Position numbers and translations under genes: made by a program. The notes under the pieces are model-generated. The model did not search any database, had not been told where the DNA came from, and saw nothing but the letters and a program-made list of their open reading frames with translations. This document shows, in pieces, positions 4,364 through 22,340 of a stretch of DNA of 64,000 nucleotides (the stretch's first letter is position 1; the number at the start of each line of letters is the position of its first letter). Source of the DNA: an uncultured Verrucomicrobiales bacterium (lineage in GTDB: Bacteria > Verrucomicrobiota > Verrucomicrobiia > Verrucomicrobiales > Akkermansiaceae); contig CALGZA010000031.1 in assembly GCA_937934595.1 (NCBI GenBank), positions 62,001-126,000 on the forward strand. The letters run 5' to 3'.

Positions 4364-4993
4364 ATGAACAATAACAGATACAAATTCCTATTGTCCGCGC
4401 TACTCATGTTAGTGTTACCAGCTTCTTTCGCAATGGCTCAGTATAAGGTTCAGGTTGATAAACCTGAGATCGTAGCTGTGAAGTCGCCTGATTTTAAAAA
4501 CTTGATGGCGAAGAAGAAATTTAAGCCTAGTGAGTGGTTAGAGGTGGAGGTTAAATTTAAGGTCGAAGTTTCTTCTAAAGCTAAGAAAAAGGTTAAATTT
4601 TTAGATAAGGTTTTAATTAAGTGGTTCATAGCTGCGAAAACTCCAGAGAATGGCAAAGGTATGATCTTGTTAGAAAAAGAGGTTATGCATGTGAATGTTC
4701 CAGTCGGTAAAGAAATTTATGCGTCAGTTTATCTTTCACCAAACTCAGTGCTGCGATTAACTGGTAATGACCGAGTTAGTAAGGCTGTTTTTGAGGAGGT
4801 GGGTGGTGAAATAAGAGTTAACGGCATGGAGGCTCACAAGAATTCTGGGTTTTTTAGCATGAATAAGCAAAGTAAGTGGTGGACTAATGCTAATTTGTCA
4901 CGCTACGATAAGATTCCATTGCTCAATAAAAATGAGACTCCATTTAAAATTATGTGGTATGGTCGTTACGCTGAGATCGAAAATAAGCGATAG
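4364..4993 (+). CDS. Amuc_1102-like secreted protein of the pilus-associated cluster
   Basis: A 209-residue exported protein with a clear signal peptide (hydrophobic 9-21, cleavage near AMA-Q26) and a lysine-rich mature part predicted to be mostly beta. Size, N-terminal pattern and position as first gene before pilM match Akkermansia Amuc_1102, for which an immunoglobulin-like fold has been reported. It is 81 nt upstream of the PilM-like gene on the same strand and is probably the first cistron of the operon. There is no Shine-Dalgarno sequence; the ATG follows an AT-rich run. The exact role is unknown. An envelope accessory role in assembling or presenting the pilus-like machine is inferred from context. 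Confidence 0.75.
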   Translation: MNNNRYKFLLSALLMLVLPASFAMAQYKVQVDKPEIVAVKSPDFKNLMAKKKFKPSEWLEVEVKFKVEVSSKAKKKVKFLDKVLIKWFIAAKTPENGKGMILLEKEVMHVNVPVGKEIYASVYLSPNSVLRLTGNDRVSKAVFEEVGGEIRVNGMEAHKNSGFFSMNKQSKWWTNANLSRYDKIPLLNKNETPFKIMWYGRYAEIENKR

Positions 4994-5074
4994 TCAATTA
5001 GATTCAGCTAACGCCTCCTGTGTTTGCTGGGTGGTGTAGTCATAATTTCAATCAATTTAACATAATTCATATAT

Positions 5075-6919
5075 ATGGCTGATACACAGTCGATCATAGC
5101 ACTAAATATAGGTTCGCAGCGGGTTACAATGGGGGTCATGGCTCCTTCGAGTAGTGGGGGTCTTATCTTGAAAAGGTACGAGTCTTCGACAATACTTGCT
5201 GATCCGGCTGCAGAGATGACTCGTTTGCCGCAGATTCGATTGGCGATTTCTGAGTTGTCGAGCAAGTTGGGGCTGAGTAAGGGTAAAGTTAATTATGCTG
5301 TATCTGGGCAATCTGTTTTTACTCGTTTTGTTAAATTGCCGTCATTAGATAGTGATGACATTGAGCAGTTAGTGGCTTTTGAGGCGCAGCAGCATGTTCC
5401 ATTTCCTATTAATGAGGTTGTGTGGGACTGGCAGCTTTTAAGCTCTGAAGGAGGGCAGCAAGAGGTTGTTTTAGTGGCTATAAAATCTGATTCTCTTGAT
5501 GATATTAATGAGTGTGTTACCAACGCGGACCTTTCTACAGGTATGGTGGACGCTTCACCAATGGCTCTTGCAAACGCATTTCTCTATAATTATGGGGATT
5601 CGGAAGAGCCTACATTGATGATAGACATAGGGGCGCGTACTAGTAATTTAGTGTATGTTGATGGATCTAAAGTCTTTACTAGGACTATTGCGATTGGCGG
5701 AGCTACATTGACGTCTGCTATTGCCAAAGAATATAACGTGCCTTTTATTGAGGCTGAATCGCAAAAATGCACTAAGGGGCTGGTTGCTTTGGATACAAGG
5801 CATACTTCTCAGTTAGACGATGATACGGCATCACTTGCCTCATGTATTAGGACAGCTCTTAACAGGATGCCCGCTGAAATAGCACGGACAACAAATTTCT
5901 TCAGGAGTCAGCATGATGGAGCGGCTCCTCGCAGGATATTTTTAGCTGGGGGAGGATCAAATCTACCGATGATTTCAGATTTCATTCAAGAAAAGCTACG
6001 TTTACCGGTTGAGTATTTCAATCCACTTAAGCGGGTTTCTGTTGGTCAGGATGTCGATGTAGAGAAAGTATCAATGGAGGCTCACTCGCTAGGTGAGATT
6101 GTAGGTTTAGGCTTACGTTCGTTGAAGGAGTCTCGATTAAATATAGATTTGGTGCCTGATGTTGTTCAGCATGAGCGTGATGATGCTCAAAAACGGCCGA
6201 AGCTTATTTTAGGGTCTTGTTTGATTGTTTCAGCTTGTGCAGCGTTTTGTGTGTTTGGGTTTCTATCTAAAAAGCGAGCTGTTAGTGCAGCGGCTGATCA
6301 GGCAAAAGTTGTAAAGGCTTTAAATGTGTATGCAAATCCTATTCGCAAGAAATATGATGACGCGAACAAAGTGGCTGATGTAGTGGGCCTATATAAAGGC
6401 GCGGTTGATTCCCGGTTGCATTGGCTGGAAGGTTTACGCGATATTAAAGCTCATTTTTCTCATCCCGAGTTATGGATCATAGAGATGAAGCCTGTAGTAA
6501 ACTTTAATCCTGATGTTGAGGAAGGGGGTGATACATATGTAGAGATTCTTGATAAGAATGTTAAGAGTGTTCCCTATAATAAATCTTACATTACAGTTCC
6601 TGGTAAGGAGCCAGAATTTGATAGTAGAGGTCGTCCAAATCCAAGGTATGTTGCCCCAATGGTAAACGCTTTAAAAATTAAAGGTTTTTGGCGAGGGTCA
6701 TCGAATGGTCTTGTGCGTAATCAGTTAAAAGAGCTTATTGAGAAATCTGAGATTTTTGGAAGAGATATTACGAAAAAAGTTAGGAATAAAGATATGAAGG
6801 TGACACTTACTAACCGTGAGATACTACCTGAGAATGCTACATCATCGGAGGATGCGGATAAGCTTGGAGCTCCATTCACTGCTATTATTCCATTGAATAA
6901 CCCCATTTTAGTTAAATAG
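5075..6919 (+). CDS. pilM: PilM-PilN fusion (Amuc_1101-like), type IV pilus inner-membrane platform
   Basis: A 614-residue protein. Residues about 5-360 form a PilM/FtsA-type actin-like ATPase fold: ALNIGSQRVTMGV at the N-terminus, PTLMIDIGARTSNLVYVDG in the second phosphate loop region, and IFLAGGGSNLP in the adenosine motif. A single transmembrane helix (about 377-395, ILGSCLIVSACAAFCVFGFL) follows. The remaining 220 residues are a periplasmic PilN-like domain. In model type IV pili PilM and PilN are separate proteins that bind each other, so this is a natural fusion. The gene is followed 8 nt later by the Amuc_1100 homolog. No ATPase motor gene is in the cluster. Confidence 0.85.
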   Translation: MADTQSIIALNIGSQRVTMGVMAPSSSGGLILKRYESSTILADPAAEMTRLPQIRLAISELSSKLGLSKGKVNYAVSGQSVFTRFVKLPSLDSDDIEQLVAFEAQQHVPFPINEVVWDWQLLSSEGGQQEVVLVAIKSDSLDDINECVTNADLSTGMVDASPMALANAFLYNYGDSEEPTLMIDIGARTSNLVYVDGSKVFTRTIAIGGATLTSAIAKEYNVPFIEAESQKCTKGLVALDTRHTSQLDDDTASLASCIRTALNRMPAEIARTTNFFRSQHDGAAPRRIFLAGGGSNLPMISDFIQEKLRLPVEYFNPLKRVSVGQDVDVEKVSMEAHSLGEIVGLGLRSLKESRLNIDLVPDVVQHERDDAQKRPKLILGSCLIVSACAAFCVFGFLSKKRAVSAAADQAKVVKALNVYANPIRKKYDDANKVADVVGLYKGAVDSRLHWLEGLRDIKAHFSHPELWIIEMKPVVNFNPDVEEGGDTYVEILDKNVKSVPYNKSYITVPGKEPEFDSRGRPNPRYVAPMVNALKIKGFWRGSSNGLVRNQLKELIEKSEIFGRDITKKVRNKDMKVTLTNREILPENATSSEDADKLGAPFTAIIPLNNPILVK

Positions 6920-6927
6920 ATAAGAAC

Positions 6928-7944
6928 ATGAGTTGGTATCAAGAAAATAAATTTGCAGCTACAGTGATGGGAGCTACGGCTTTTGTCTCAGGAGTTTTGG
7001 TCTATATTGGGATGGGTTTTAATTCTGAAGCTGACCTTGCTAAACGTCAGGAACAGCGTTCGGTAAATGAGATTGATCGGTTGCAGTCGGCTAGCTTGTA
7101 TCCGAGTGCGGTCAACAAAGAGCAGTTGGCTAGAGAGGTAGAAGCATTTGCATCTGAAGCTAAAGGTTTTCAAGAAGAATTACTGAAATATAGGCCCAAG
7201 GTGATGGCGAAGTTGACTCAAAATGAGTTTAGTGGTGAGGTGACTGCTTTCCATCGTTATTTACAGGATTATTACAAAGAGAAAGGTATTTCTTTATCTA
7301 AGGGGGCATCTGTGTATTTTGGTATGGAGGAATATGCTAAGGTAACGGCATCTGAAAGTTCTACTAAGCTCTTAAACTATCAACTAAAAGCATTGAAGAG
7401 TTTATTCAAGAGTCTGGCTGACTCTGGTATAGAGTCACTTGAAAATGTTCACCGGCCACAAGCTGCTGAAGCAATTATTGCAAAAAAGGGTAAGTCTAAA
7501 AGTAATTCTAAGAGATCTAAAAAGCGTAGCCGTGCAAAGACGGTAAGTAGTGTATACGATGGATTGCCGATAGAGGTTACTTTTACTGGTTCAGAGGCAT
7601 CCATGCAGGAATTCTTTAAAAGTTTGGTTAATAACGATGATTATTTCTTTACGGTTAAGCAGTTTATGGTTCGTAATGAGAAGCAAGAGAGAGTTTCTAT
7701 ATCTAAATCGACTCTTGCTGAAAAAGCTGAACTAGCAGCAATGGAATTTGATGATCCTGGAAGTAAACAAAAAGTTAATACTAAAAAAGAGATACTTAAG
7801 CAAGTTACCGGTAACGAGAATGTGACAGTGTTTATGCTTATAGAATTAGTACTATTTCATGAGGCATCTGAGGTAGAAATACCAGGGCTTGCTATGAATA
7901 AGCAGGCAGAAATTAAAGGCGCTAAGAAGCGTGAAACTCAATAA
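6928..7944 (+). CDS. Amuc_1100-like membrane-anchored protein (PilO-like)
   Basis: A 338-residue bitopic protein with a short cytoplasmic N-terminus (MSWYQENK), one transmembrane helix (about 9-30), a helical coiled-coil-prone stretch (35-115) and a C-terminal alpha/beta region (about 205-260, then 280-330). This layout and its place between the PilM and Amuc_1099 homologs match Amuc_1100, the Akkermansia outer-envelope protein reported to signal through TLR2 and to be structurally PilO-like. A strongly basic Lys/Ser/Arg run at 186-205 breaks the fold region. It roughly accounts for the protein being longer than the 317-residue Akkermansia protein. Immune signalling must not be assumed for this homolog. 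Confidence 0.78.
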   Translation: MSWYQENKFAATVMGATAFVSGVLVYIGMGFNSEADLAKRQEQRSVNEIDRLQSASLYPSAVNKEQLAREVEAFASEAKGFQEELLKYRPKVMAKLTQNEFSGEVTAFHRYLQDYYKEKGISLSKGASVYFGMEEYAKVTASESSTKLLNYQLKALKSLFKSLADSGIESLENVHRPQAAEAIIAKKGKSKSNSKRSKKRSRAKTVSSVYDGLPIEVTFTGSEASMQEFFKSLVNNDDYFFTVKQFMVRNEKQERVSISKSTLAEKAELAAMEFDDPGSKQKVNTKKEILKQVTGNENVTVFMLIELVLFHEASEVEIPGLAMNKQAEIKGAKKRETQ

Positions 7945-7958
7945 TTATTTAGAATATA

Positions 7959-8990
7959 ATGTCTTGGTTATCAGAAAACTATGAAAAAGCTCTTATGGGA
8001 GTTGCTGTGGTAACAGTAGCTGCTGTAGGTTATTCGATATTCTCAGGGAGTGGTGATGTAAAGCCGCCAAAGACTCAAACTCCTAATGATCAGGTGCAGC
8101 TGGGTCAGAGGGATGTTTTATCTACAGCTCTCAAGAGGTTTACATCTGTGGTTGATATTGCTAGTAAGAAAAGTGATGGTAACGAGGTTCAAAGTTTTAC
8201 GGCTTTCCCACTCTATAGTGTGAAAGGTAAGAAAGGGTTGCAGTCACTTAATGACGATTTTGAGATTCATCCTGGTATGAAGTTGAAGTGGTGGAGAGAA
8301 AATGGGCTTGAGGATTATAAGTATAGTGATGGGCCTGAATTGGATGCTGATAAAGATGGGTTTACTAATCGTGAAGAGTTTGTCGGTAAAACAGACCCTA
8401 AGGATGCTAAGTCTCATCCTGATTTTATAGCTAAGCTTGAGCTTATTGATAAAAGTTCTGTTCCGTTCTCGATGAGTTGGACGAAGGTGAATGATAAACA
8501 AGGTAGTTTTACCTTTAAGTCTGGCCGGAATCGCATTTCTTACGTGCAATGTTCTGCTGGAGATAAATTGCCTCTTAAGATTGAAAAAAAATATAGGAAA
8601 TTTGAAAAATATAACAATTTGCTTGGTCGGTTTGATATTTTAGAGAAGAAAGTGGATCCTGACAAGACTGGTGAGCAAGCTGAGTATTATATTATACAGG
8701 TTAATGATAAAAATAAGGTTAAGAAGCCATTTCGGTTATATTACCGTGAAAAATACCAGTTTAAAGACTGGAAAACTAAGTTAAGCTTGAATATAAAAGG
8801 GCTGGATACTCCTTTTGAAGTGCCTGAAGGTGAGAGCTTCTCATTACCTCACGATCCCGATGCTGAGGAGCGACCTTACAGGTATCTGTCTAACAGGGAC
8901 GGAGGTATAGTTATCGAGTATCAAAAGAATGGGCAGAAAACGACTATTAATCTTGATAAGAAGGTTGTTACTAAATCCTTAGATGAGTAG
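7959..8990 (+). CDS. Amuc_1099-like membrane-anchored protein with calcium-binding-type repeat
   Basis: A 343-residue protein starting MSWLSENYEKALMG, closely like the N-terminus of the preceding gene (MSWYQENKFAATVMG). One transmembrane helix (about 9-29) is followed by a periplasmic part. Residues 129-148 hold a thrombospondin type 3/dockerin-like calcium motif: D129-A-D131-K-D133-G ending in E140, then TDPKDA. The rest is beta-rich and lysine-rich. Position and features match Akkermansia Amuc_1099. It lies 14 nt after the Amuc_1100 homolog and 133 nt before the secretin. It probably links the inner-membrane platform to the secretin, in the way PilP does; this is inferred from position only. 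Confidence 0.75.
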   Translation: MSWLSENYEKALMGVAVVTVAAVGYSIFSGSGDVKPPKTQTPNDQVQLGQRDVLSTALKRFTSVVDIASKKSDGNEVQSFTAFPLYSVKGKKGLQSLNDDFEIHPGMKLKWWRENGLEDYKYSDGPELDADKDGFTNREEFVGKTDPKDAKSHPDFIAKLELIDKSSVPFSMSWTKVNDKQGSFTFKSGRNRISYVQCSAGDKLPLKIEKKYRKFEKYNNLLGRFDILEKKVDPDKTGEQAEYYIIQVNDKNKVKKPFRLYYREKYQFKDWKTKLSLNIKGLDTPFEVPEGESFSLPHDPDAEERPYRYLSNRDGGIVIEYQKNGQKTTINLDKKVVTKSLDE

Positions 8991-8997
8991 GATGAAC

Positions 8998-9014
8998 TCC
9001 TTATTTGATAAGGA
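8998..9014 (+). promoter_or_regulatory. short hairpin between the Amuc_1099-like gene and the secretin gene
   Basis: A perfect 7-bp stem (TCCTTAT at 8998-9004 and ATAAGGA at 9008-9014) with a TTG loop sits just after the stop codon. It is not followed by a T-run, so it is not a clear terminator. It could mark an mRNA processing site or help stability within the operon. The rest of the 133-nt gap is A-rich with a C7 run just before the secretin start region. Confidence 0.35.
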
Positions 9015-9123
9015 TTAGACAATAGTCAAGTTTAAAGAGTCACAACTAATACTAAAAAATTTTACAAAAAATAAAAAAAACGCTTCACAAACCCCCCCTA
9101 AATAAACGAACCTATAATCAATT

Positions 9124-11676
9124 ATGGAAAACACACCTACGCATCGATCAAGTAGAACAGCGGCTATATTAATGGCTGCTGCAATCGCTATGCCAATTGT
9201 AGTGTCTAGTGTAGCATCTGCTAGCGAGAACAGTCTCGTCAAAGCGGAGATAGCTAGACGAGAGCTACAGATAGCAGACGCAGACAAAGCAATACAAGCA
9301 GGGCGTAAAGCCTACAGTAGCAGGAAGTTTGAAGAAGCTGTCAATCAGTATCGCAAAGCAGTACAGCTTTTACCACAGGGGCCAGTAGCGGCAGAGCGCC
9401 GTCGAGAGTATATTGGTCATTTATTAGATGGCTCAATTGCTCTATCGACACAATACCGCAGATCAGGCAAGTATTCTGAGGCTAAAGAGCTGTTAGATAA
9501 TGTTCTTAAGAGTGACCCGGGGAATATTCAGGCTAAAAAGCATCTTGAGTATCTTGATGATCCGATCAGGACTAATCCTGTGCTAACTTATGATCACACT
9601 AAGAATGTTGAGAAAGTAAGGAAGCTACTATACAGAGCAAATGGTTATTATGATTTAGGTCAATTTGATTATGCGCTATTGGAGTATCGTGAAATAATGC
9701 GCATTGACCCTTACAATAAGGCTGCTAGGCGAGGAATGGAGAAAGTTGATGCAGCGAGGAGCGATTATTACCGTGCTGCCTATGATCAGACGCGGGCTTC
9801 GATGTTGGCTCAAGTTGACCAAGCGTGGGAGATTTCTGTGCCTCCCCTTATAAGGACAGGGACTATTGATGGTGATTCTCGTGGCGAAAATGTTAACCCT
9901 GCTATTTATCTAAAGCAGAAGTTATCTAAAATTATGCTTCCTGTCGTTGAGTTTGATGAAGATGCGACTGTTAGGGATGCTATTAATTTCCTAAGGCTTC
10001 GCTCAAGGGAGCTAGATGACGAGTTGGATCCAGATAAAAGGGGTTTGAACTTTGTCTTCCGAAATAGAACCATTCTAGATGACGCTGGTGATGCCAAAAA
10101 TGCAGAAGTTCAGCTTGATAAGATTGAGAACAAGAAGCTGGGTGGTCTCAAAATTAGGAATGTTCCTCTTGAGGAGGCGTTGAAGCAGATTTGTAAGATG
10201 ACTAATCTACGTTTCAAGGTAGAGAGCTATTCGGTTGTTATTATGAATGCGTCTGATGTTGATGTGAATGAGATGTTTTCTCGCACATTCAAAGTGCCGC
10301 CTGATTTTATGAACCTTATTTCTTCTGACAACGGAGGTGGGGAAGATGGTGCTGATCCGTTTGGTGAAGATGAGGCGGCACCTAGAAAGTCTGTGGCTGA
10401 GCTGCTTACATTGATGGGTATAAATTTTCCATCAGGTTCAACAGCTGGCTTTAGTAAAGCTAGATCGACGTTGTCTGTCCGCAATACTTCTAATGCGCTA
10501 GACGCTATAGAGGAGTTGGTGATAAATTTAAGGAATAAGAAGCCAAAGCAGATTAAGATTCTCACTAAATTTGTTGAGATAAGTCAGGAAAATACCGATG
10601 AATTAGGTTTTGACTGGATTATTTCACCTTTTGGTATTACGTCAAATAGTTCTTTCCTAAGTGGTGGAACTTTGGGTAATTCGATTGGGCGGACTGGATC
10701 AGACTTTGTAAGTCCGATAAGCGGTGTCAGTGTTCCTGGAGTTGCAGGTTCTAATCAGAGTGTATCTAACATAGTTACTGGAGGTAATCGTTCAGGTGAC
10801 TATGCTATTAGCAGAGACAGTATTGATTCATTCCTTAATAATCCAAACAGGACTGCTCAGAATAGTAATGTTGCGCCGGGTATTTTATCTCTCACTGGTC
10901 TCTTTACAGATGGTCAGGTTCAGATGATCATGCGTGGTCTTAATCAGAAAAAGGGTGCTGATGTTATGACTGCTCCTAGTATTGTTACACAATCTGGAAA
11001 TATGGCTACGATACATATCATCCGTGAATTTATCTATCCAACTGAATATGAGCCACCCGAGCTTCCGCAGGCAGTAAATGTAGGTGGAGGATTGAACGGT
11101 GACGGTAATGGAGGTAATGAAGGTGGAAACATTTTCCCTGTTACTCCTGCTACTCCAACTGCGTTTGAAACACGTAATACAGGTGTTACTCTGAAGGTAG
11201 AGCCTACTCTTGATGAAGACAGTTATACGATCAATCTTAAGTTTCAGCCTGAGATAGTTGAGTTTGAGGGATTCATTAATTATGGTTCACCTATTCAGTC
11301 GCCTGGAACTGATGCATTAGGTAATCCGATCACGATCACGATTACTGAGAACCGTATTGAGATGCCTGTATTTTCAACACGTAAGGTAGATACTTCAATT
11401 ACAATCTATGATGGTCACACTGTGGCTGTTGGTGGACTTATGAGGGAAGAGGTTCAGAACGTAGAAGATAAGGTGCCTATACTTGGTGATCTTCCATTAG
11501 TTGGGCGTTTGTTCCAGACTAAGGCAGAGAATCACATCAAGAGTAATCTCATCATCTTTGTGACCGCTCGTATCATTGATGCGACTGGGCAGCCAGTATC
11601 TCAGGCAGTCATTGGTCCAGATGGAGTTCCTACTACTGGTGGAGAAGCTTCTTTATTGCCGACTATTAGTAATTAG
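9124..11676 (+). CDS. outer-membrane secretin with N-terminal TPR region (Amuc_1098/PilQ-like)
   Basis: An 850-residue outer-membrane channel. It has a signal peptide (cleavage near VASA-S35) and a TPR-type helical region (about 50-215, with units such as GRKAYSSRKFEEAVNQY and GQFDYALLEYREI). An STN/N-domain follows (about 260-375, including RNVPLEEALKQICKMTNLRF), then a low-complexity acidic linker, an N1-type domain and the secretin beta-barrel (about 600-830). The classic secretin signature VPILGDLPLVGRLF starts at 784. TPR repeats fused to a secretin are typical of the Verrucomicrobiota/Planctomycetota Amuc_1098 type. It is the last gene of the cluster and is followed by a strong terminator. 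Early codons are less GT-skewed than in neighbouring genes, consistent with high expression. Confidence 0.9.
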   Translation: MENTPTHRSSRTAAILMAAAIAMPIVVSSVASASENSLVKAEIARRELQIADADKAIQAGRKAYSSRKFEEAVNQYRKAVQLLPQGPVAAERRREYIGHLLDGSIALSTQYRRSGKYSEAKELLDNVLKSDPGNIQAKKHLEYLDDPIRTNPVLTYDHTKNVEKVRKLLYRANGYYDLGQFDYALLEYREIMRIDPYNKAARRGMEKVDAARSDYYRAAYDQTRASMLAQVDQAWEISVPPLIRTGTIDGDSRGENVNPAIYLKQKLSKIMLPVVEFDEDATVRDAINFLRLRSRELDDELDPDKRGLNFVFRNRTILDDAGDAKNAEVQLDKIENKKLGGLKIRNVPLEEALKQICKMTNLRFKVESYSVVIMNASDVDVNEMFSRTFKVPPDFMNLISSDNGGGEDGADPFGEDEAAPRKSVAELLTLMGINFPSGSTAGFSKARSTLSVRNTSNALDAIEELVINLRNKKPKQIKILTKFVEISQENTDELGFDWIISPFGITSNSSFLSGGTLGNSIGRTGSDFVSPISGVSVPGVAGSNQSVSNIVTGGNRSGDYAISRDSIDSFLNNPNRTAQNSNVAPGILSLTGLFTDGQVQMIMRGLNQKKGADVMTAPSIVTQSGNMATIHIIREFIYPTEYEPPELPQAVNVGGGLNGDGNGGNEGGNIFPVTPATPTAFETRNTGVTLKVEPTLDEDSYTINLKFQPEIVEFEGFINYGSPIQSPGTDALGNPITITITENRIEMPVFSTRKVDTSITIYDGHTVAVGGLMREEVQNVEDKVPILGDLPLVGRLFQTKAENHIKSNLIIFVTARIIDATGQPVSQAVIGPDGVPTTGGEASLLPTISN

Positions 11677-11696: not shown

Positions 11697-11731
11697 TAAG
11701 CGGGACTGCTGAGTGCAGTTCCGCTTTTTTG
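11697..11731 (+). terminator. Rho-independent terminator after the secretin operon
   Basis: An 11-bp stem (AGCGGGACTGC at 11699-11709 paired with GCAGTTCCGCT at 11714-11724, one G-T pair) and a 4-nt loop, followed by six T residues. It lies 23 nt after the secretin stop and separates the pilus-like operon from coaE. Confidence 0.9.
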
Positions 11732-21755: not shown

Positions 21756-22340
21756 TTACCAAGATTTAGCGTCTTGTTTGTCATTGAATTCTTGATCTGG
21801 TCCAGGTGAGGCTACGATAGCTGAGTCTACATTGAGGTTGGTTTTGTATGCGGGGCCTTCTGCGTTATTACCAATTTTAGTAGCGTCTATGATGCCGTTA
21901 GCACCATAATCGAGTCTGATGGTGTATGGATTATTCCATTTGTCTATTAGTTTGCTAACGTTGTCGCCTGAGTATACGAGTCCGTCCCTGTCTCCTTTTG
22001 CTCTGTCTGCGGTGAAGAATTTTTTAGCTTTATCGTTGAAGTCTGTATTGATGCCCATGAGAACCTCAAGAAGGTCTCCGGAGTCGGTGGTTACATTTTC
22101 GTCATTTGATGGATATGTTCCTGTGTATGGAAGGCTATCGTATTCAGCTTGGAATCCCTCGATTGCAAATGTGATGTCTTTGCATATTTTTTTTGTTTTC
22201 GTTACATCTGCAGTAGTCATGAAGCCTACTATGGGTCCGTAGGCTAACCCACCTAGTATGGCGATGATGGCTACTACTACGAGAAGTTCCATTAGAGTAA
22301 AACCTTTTTTAGATGATTGAGTATGTTTGATTATTTTCAT
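21756..22340 (-). CDS. GspG-like type II secretion/type IV pseudopilin
   Basis: A 194-residue prepilin-like protein. The leader ends KKG13, with predicted prepilin-peptidase cleavage before F14. The processed N-terminus FTLMELLVVVAIIAILG has the conserved Glu at +5 and the hydrophobic alpha1 helix. The globular part ends in ASPGPDQEFNDKQDAKSW, the calcium-site/C-terminal pattern of GspG-like pseudopilins common in Verrucomicrobiota and Planctomycetota. It is a single gene, not next to gsp or pil genes. It may be a minor or major pseudopilin for a machine encoded elsewhere, possibly using the secretin cluster at 4364-11676; that link is only a guess. Confidence 0.86.
   Translation of the reverse strand: MKIIKHTQSSKKGFTLMELLVVVAIIAILGGLAYGPIVGFMTTADVTKTKKICKDITFAIEGFQAEYDSLPYTGTYPSNDENVTTDSGDLLEVLMGINTDFNDKAKKFFTADRAKGDRDGLVYSGDNVSKLIDKWNNPYTIRLDYGANGIIDATKIGNNAEGPAYKTNLNVDSAIVASPGPDQEFNDKQDAKSW

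Follow-up and report, generated by a model that had tools for sequence, protein, structure and literature searches.

Positions 4364-11676 of the 64,000-nucleotide stretch of Akkermansiaceae DNA analysed here (the window) hold five genes resembling the Amuc_1102-1098 cluster of Akkermansia, which includes the gene for Amuc_1100. The question raised by this locus is whether its products form a secretin-based envelope machine of their own, as the initial annotation had proposed, or part of a type IV pilus (T4P). We consider it very probable that the cluster is a divergent pilMNOPQ operon encoding the alignment complex and secretin of a T4a-like T4P machine, with PilM and PilN fused in a single protein.

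Gene identities and a probable PilM-PilN fusion

The pilMNOPQ-type cluster comprises five open reading frames (ORFs) on the plus strand, with gaps of 81, 8, 14 and 133 bp in gene order. The order is Amuc_1102, 1101, 1100, 1099, 1098, and the top NCBIfam match of each protein is its own Akkermansia equivalog, above the curated cut-off. The 209-aa Amuc_1102 homologue (4364-4993) scored 213 bits against NF042424 (cut-off 55), the 614-aa Amuc_1101 homologue (5075-6919) 775 bits against NF045709 (cut-off 650), and the 338-aa Amuc_1100 homologue (6928-7944), which has an N-terminal transmembrane (TM) segment, 201 bits against NF038287 (cut-off 180). The 343-aa Amuc_1099 homologue (7959-8990), likewise with an N-terminal TM segment, reached 179 bits with NF042425 (cut-off 50), and the 850-aa Amuc_1098 homologue (9124-11676), a secretin whose N-terminal region contains TPR and STN domains, 1086 bits with NF042912 (cut-off 750). 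In a PDB sequence search the best matches were the solved structures of Amuc_1100 (6lad, E 1e-16) and Amuc_1102 (7dsz, E 6e-29). The presence of all five genes in Akkermansia order, first recognized in the initial annotation, is thus borne out by the profile comparison with Amuc_1098-1102 that it had suggested. Pfam identified PilM_2 in the Amuc_1101 homologue and Secretin, TPR and STN in the Amuc_1098 homologue; the Amuc_1102, 1100 and 1099 homologues had no Pfam match above cut-offs.

The Amuc_1101 homologue is a PilM by its score of 163 bits against the pilM model TIGR01175 (cut-off 133) and by a PF11104 PilM_2 match (E 1e-37) covering its cytoplasmic, actin-like domain (residues 11-349; 5105-6121, plus strand). 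A single hydrophobic segment begins at about residue 375, within a PilN-like stretch spanning residues 356-614 (6140-6916, plus strand). A profile built from 20 Amuc_1101 C-termini of relatives was searched against 177,635 PDB sequences, and ranked Myxococcus xanthus PilN (3jc8) first, at E 8e-6, the next match being at E 0.018. The sequence I-D-L-V-P at the PilM junction, where the PilN-like segment starts, aligns with the I-N-L-L-P start of PilN. Pfam PilN found no match in the window's own Amuc_1101 protein; in 1101 ORFs of relatives that lie beside the 1100 gene it exceeded its cut-off in G139 (27.2 bits) and G110 (24.9 bits) and, with neighbouring matches added, in G174 (23.3 bits) and G015 (27.3 bits). 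PilN is therefore identified within the PilM fusion, by the family profile and by these four orthologous ORFs. Together these data give good support to a PilN-like assignment, and we describe Amuc_1101 as a PilM domain, one TM helix and a PilN-like periplasmic part, in a GspL-like architecture. Since GspL is itself a single protein of PilM plus PilN-like type, this architecture has precedent. Two candidate variants were rejected: an unfused PilN in G110 (a 274-aa frame), because the contig ends there, and a fusion of the 1100 and 1101 genes in G104 and G090 (937-aa open frames), because the genes lie in different frames.

A GspL-like architecture is also what a type II secretion system (T2SS) would offer, and in that reading the cluster would encode a GspL-GspM-GspC-GspD platform on which a pseudopilus expels proteins, instead of a surface pilus. 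Structural comparison of the predicted Amuc_1101 C-terminus by VIA-align, carried out on Foldseek's 1000 best chains, returned rows rich in GspL and GspM, all at Z < 8, a level that can arise by chance. The leading rows were periplasmic domains: M. xanthus PilO ranked first (Z 7.9, root-mean-square deviation 9.8 Å), Pseudomonas aeruginosa XcpY/GspL scored Z 7.6 and 7.4 (2.3-2.5 Å) and PulL Z 7.0 (2.7 Å), and Thermus thermophilus PilN (4bhq) was at rank 38 (Z 4.3). Alignment by hhalign of the C-terminal profile with PilO-like proteins from nine loci of the phylum gave 44.6% probability, across 20 columns only. Against a T2SS, the cytoplasmic part of the protein is PilM_2/pilM, and no T2SSL Pfam match was found in the window protein at E <= 1.

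Assignment of the other subunits

With 1101 taken as M plus N, the gene order fits pilMNOPQ, and we read it as fused pilM and pilN (1101), pilO (1100), a pilP/gspC-like gene (1099) and pilQ (1098), with 1102 encoding a periplasmic accessory.

A PilO-type role of Amuc_1100 is proposed with moderate confidence. It draws on L100, a complete cluster with conserved gene order whose distant Amuc_1100 orthologue matches both NF038287 (7e-13) and Pfam PilO (PF04350, 26.2 bits, cut-off 22). This was one of 20 Amuc_1100-family members scanned, and the other 19 had no PilO match. The Amuc_1099 homologue contains a calcium-binding-like D-x-D-x-DG loop, and TSP3 matches were found in 8 of 16 members of its family. 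Its predicted C-terminal beta domain (model confidence mostly 70-92) gave the PulC HR domain (6hcg_e) as the top VIA-align row, with Z 5.3 and 2.2 Å over 66 of 68 residues, the next row being at Z 3.7. This resemblance, to the HR domain of GspC, is suggestive of a PilP/GspC-like protein and is a further point that a T2SS would explain. Family and profile searches gave no sequence match of Amuc_1099 to PilP or GspC, and hhalign of the Amuc_1100 and Amuc_1099 profiles against the PilO-like proteins of the nine loci returned probabilities of 1.0-4.1%.

The Amuc_1098 homologue is a secretin by PF00263 (E 5e-31, 108 bits, cut-off 27.5), and is far below the cut-off of the PilQ-specific model (97 of 284 bits). 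It is also under that of the T2SS secretin GspD (107.8 of 351 bits); GspE, GspF and GspG scores likewise all fall under their cut-offs.

The remaining protein, Amuc_1102, has been interpreted in the published account of the MUL2 locus (PMC13174399) as an archaeal-type pilin forming a glycan-gripping filament, with the rest of the cluster as its assembly unit. That account, which covers aquatic Akkermansiaceae, found the locus to be syntenic in 266 of 352 non-muciniphila Akkermansiaceae, and reports uptake of labelled fucoidan by Akkermansiaceae identified by fluorescence in situ hybridization. In the window the Amuc_1102 homologue has a hydrophobic N-terminal segment that reads as a cleavable Sec signal peptide, no prepilin motif, and no Pfam match at E <= 1, hence no N_methyl. 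Six true prepilins are encoded elsewhere in the genome, and in the relative G015 the 1102 relative heads the pilM-Q block and comes after a prepilin gene. A pilin role of Amuc_1102 is thus unlikely, and we take the protein to be a periplasmic component accessory to the pilus machine. Relatives of Amuc_1102, under the family cut-off, lie directly upstream of 1101 in L082 and L083. Alignments A1-A3 leave out L060 (a cut contig) and, gene by gene, parts of L062, L063, L064, L067, L068 and L074 (wrong frame or no homologue picked), and the L076 row in A1 covers the last part only.

Motors and prepilins in the host and its phylum

The host genome, 95.9% complete and comprising 3.15 Mb in 123 contigs, encodes five T2SSE-family ATPases. 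Two are of PilB type and lie in tandem on contig C41; two others, also in tandem, belong to the PilT family and lie on C43, scoring 418 and 422 bits (cut-off 319). The fifth, on C122, is PilT-like but under the cut-off (266 bits). Within the PilB-type pair, one member is nearer the PilB model (603 versus 577 bits) and the other nearer the GspE model (585 versus 561 bits). C41 also carries the only PilC of the genome and one prepilin; PilB and PilC are strong but sub-cut-off matches to the T4P equivalog models. The single prepilin peptidase is encoded on C43. PilB, PilC, PilT, PilD and prepilins of a type IVa pilus are accordingly all present, and with the cluster every T4P gene class is found in the genome. 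One of the six prepilins lies within the window (21756-22340, minus strand): a 194-aa class III prepilin containing KKGFTLMELLVVVAIIAILGG, with 37.5 bits for PF07963 in the genome-wide search (cut-off 21.2) and 33 bits for TIGR02532 (cut-off 16.3). It is a candidate pilin of the same machine. The initial annotation's statement that assembly ATPases and a major pilin are missing therefore holds for the cluster itself, but not for the genome, which has ATPases, PilC and six prepilins, nor for the window, which has the prepilin just described.

Amuc_1101 is the only PilM_2 protein of the genome, and no PilN or PilO Pfam match was found there at E <= 0.1. Besides the secretin of the cluster there is just one further secretin in the genome, again of the Amuc_1098 family (C63; 737 bits, cut-off 750). 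A canonical pilQ/pilO set elsewhere that pairs with the pil motors, an arrangement that the initial annotation had said would count against its proposal, is thus not what this genome contains. The C63 gene (L018:4162-6564, minus strand) has no 1099-1102 partners; after it come a gene for a 500-aa protein that belongs to no family and one for a MoxR-like AAA ATPase. Genomes of the host's family commonly encode two full-length Amuc_1098-family secretins, and in G125 two secretin genes of the Amuc_1098 family stand in tandem at the cluster end (L071:6158-11208). In a 1115-aa protein on C57 (L088:2102-5449, minus strand), a von Willebrand-like region is joined to an Amuc_1098-like TPR/STN stretch (profile 105-466, E 2e-78); the secretin barrel is absent. 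Next to the pilB-pilB-pilC-prepilin genes on C41 is a gene for a 450-aa OmpA-domain protein with an N-terminal hydrophobic stretch (L016:4963-6315, minus strand).

The distribution of motors was surveyed in 194 genomes of the phylum, with Amuc_1100 matches taken at E <= 0.001 and T2SSE matches (PilB/GspE-type ATPases) at E <= 9.3e-122. Amuc_1100 was matched in 148 genomes, 16 of them above the family cut-off, and T2SSE in 187; all 148 Amuc_1100 carriers have T2SSE. The seven genomes lacking the ATPase (G008, G036, G042, G054, G057, G072 and G152) are all Amuc_1100-negative, and span two families, hence perhaps two independent cases. PilT-family proteins above cut-off occur in 185 of the 194 genomes, including 146 of the Amuc_1100 carriers; the nine without PilT are the same seven plus G116 and G136, which are weak Amuc_1100 carriers. 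Absence of a motor from many Verrucomicrobiota with this cluster, which the initial annotation had set as a test of its proposal, is contradicted by these counts.

Physical linkage was observed in two genomes of one genus (G015 and G157), where pilB-pilT-pilB-pilC immediately precede the cluster and share its strand, with the PilT scoring 457 bits. G157 has an Amuc_1102 relative between pilC and 1101 (NF042424, 39 bits, cut-off 55). In G015 the motors are followed by a GspH-like prepilin gene, three ORFs, and then 1102, 1101, 1100, 1099 and 1098; the three ORFs, which have no NCBIfam match, appear by eye to encode two minor prepilins and a GspK-like protein.

An independent secretin-based envelope machine, free of pilus motors, would agree with the lack of an ATPase or prepilin in the cluster itself and with the C63 secretin near its MoxR-like ATPase, which indicates that the secretin family may have other uses. 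Given the motors and prepilins of the genome, the absence of any Amuc_1100 carrier without a PilB/GspE-type ATPase, and the linked locus of two genomes, we regard the non-pilus machine of the initial annotation as highly improbable. A T2SS would account for the best scores of one PilB, of PilC and of some pilins on T2SS models, and for the GspH match of the prepilin in the linked locus. To our knowledge, however, T2SSs have no PilT; PilT-family ATPases are present in the genome, two of them above cut-off, and PilT also lies within the linked operon. Along with the PilM_2 and sub-cut-off Gsp scores above, this makes a T2SS improbable.

The two PilB-type ATPases, one PilB-nearer and one GspE-nearer, together with a single PilC and a single PilM-PilN protein, give rise to another reading, in which one alignment-secretin complex would serve both extension ATPases, and the machine could produce either a retractable pilus or, from the same GspL-like platform, a pseudopilus of T2SS type. 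In the linked operon, the two pilB genes flank pilT. We consider such a hybrid system doubtful, if worth bearing in mind; within it, the PilP with its calcium-binding-like loop and the immunoglobulin (Ig)-like 1102 could be lineage-specific parts.

The host belongs to the family of Akkermansia but to a different genus, near Rubritalea metagenome-assembled genomes (MAGs). It shares its family with 17 sampled genomes of one genus and one genome of a third genus; the former was read as Akkermansia because its Amuc_1100, compared by eye, looks almost the same as the PDB chain. Among named sequences, the Amuc_1101 protein is closest to ones from uncultured Rubritalea MAGs (57-73% identity), from a Verrucomicrobiales MAG (74%) and from an Akkermansiaceae MAG in which the gene is partial (86%). 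GC content is 40.6% in the cluster and 43.9% in the window, whereas two loci of the genus taken to be Akkermansia have 56-58%. The cluster proteins share 25-49% identity over aligned residues with those of one such locus. The early view that the host is not A. muciniphila is upheld by both measures.

By eye, the flanking genes are proS upstream and coaE and rho downstream; a coaE and rho flank has likewise been reported for Akkermansiaceae (PMC13174399). A terminator-like hairpin (11698-11726, plus strand; 12 pairs, then a T-rich tail) lies 3' of the secretin gene, and is one of 6 sites in a terminator scan that showed no excess over shuffled sequences (6.0). The promoter scan was uninformative (22 sites versus 20.8 in shuffles).

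Proposed machine and comparison with known systems

In the T4a-like pilus machine that we favour, the cytoplasmic actin-like PilM domain of Amuc_1101 would dock the ATPase and PilC, and one TM helix would join it to the PilN-like periplasmic domain. Amuc_1100 would be its PilO-like partner, anchored in the inner membrane. Amuc_1099, which carries an additional calcium-binding-like loop, would provide the link to the secretin in the manner of PilP/GspC. Amuc_1098 would form the PilQ secretin in the outer membrane, and Amuc_1102 a secreted Ig-like accessory whose signal is not of the prepilin type. The two PilB ATPases and single PilC of C41 may polymerise prepilins processed by the C43 peptidase, and the PilT ATPases of C43 and C122 may retract pili through the Amuc_1101-1098 complex. 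From these data we infer the subunit contacts, the joint working of the dispersed genes, retraction, and any glycan-gripping use.

Several observations weigh against this model. The motors lie on C41, C43 and C122 and the cluster on C31, so that the pairing in this genome is one we infer, and the linkage in two genomes of one genus represents one lineage. The linked-locus 1102, 1101, 1099 and 1098 proteins best match the Akkermansia families, but under the cut-offs (39/55, 500/650, 42/50 and 445/750 bits, respectively). G108 and G146 (small genomes, of 1.7 and 1.3 Mb) encode PilB and PilT yet match neither the Amuc_1098 nor the Amuc_1100 family. Some T2SSE matches of relatives belong to separate T2SS-like loci with their own PilN/PilO; because some carriers have such extra loci near T2SSE genes, not every T2SSE serves the Amuc_1102-1098 machine. 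As to the subunits, the predicted Amuc_1101 C-terminus is poorly modelled (mean predicted local distance difference test score, pLDDT, 55) and gave nothing in Foldseek at E <= 0.001, as did the Amuc_1099 model, and the match of the latter to the PulC HR domain, at Z 5.3, is in the range where chance arrangements occur. The Amuc_1100 profile reached 2.5-4.1% probability in hhalign against PilO-like proteins of the phylum, and a PDB profile search with it found no PilO.

The cluster is real, complete and already published, here as a marine relative in a further genus, and in our reading it is a T4P sub-operon, not a machine of its own. The syntenic MUL2 study terms 1099 and 1100 uncharacterized, 1101 PilM and 1102 archaeal-pilin-like (PMC13174399). 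Extracts of other papers name Amuc_1098 as PilQ (PMC10688800) and the Amuc_1100 product as PilO (PMC11573778), cite the structural likeness of Amuc_1100 to T4P and T2SS proteins (PMC13119276), and mention MUL genes for pili (PMC12418764); the original cluster paper, also seen in extract, is PMC5332112. A literature search of partial coverage found no statement of 1101 as a PilM-PilN fusion or of 1099 as PilP, and one on Verrucomicrobi secretin, PilB and type IV pili found nothing relevant. The PilM, PilO and PilQ labels are thus in print, and what remains of interest is the assignment of subunits and the PilM-PilN fusion.

Amuc_1100 has attracted study as a probiotic protein and is commonly assigned to the outer membrane or the pilus. 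If our model is correct, it is a PilO-like part of an inner-membrane alignment complex, and both its reported surface exposure and its route to host receptors will have to be re-examined. A fused PilM-PilN and a PilP-like 1099 would give testable roles to genes published as uncharacterized, and the linked operon would identify the motors of the machine.

Compared with known systems, the cluster has the same five genes, order and strand as A. muciniphila Amuc_1102-1098 (MUL2), all above curated cut-offs, but differs in its much lower GC content and in its 25-49% identity to the same-family genus read as Akkermansia. With the type II GspL-GspM-GspC-GspD platform it shares the GspL architecture of 1101 and the HR-like domain of 1099, whereas PilM_2 replaces T2SSL and PilT is present, in one lineage within the same operon. 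The type IVa PilMNOPQ system has the same order if 1101 is M plus N, with PilM above cut-off and PilN and PilO signals in relatives; it likewise has one secretin, and PilB, PilC, PilT, PilD and pilins are present in the genome. In contrast to that system, PilM and PilN here form one protein, an Ig-like 1102 is added, the PilP-like protein bears a calcium-binding-like loop, and the secretin carries TPRs and reaches 97 of the 284 bits set for the PilQ model.

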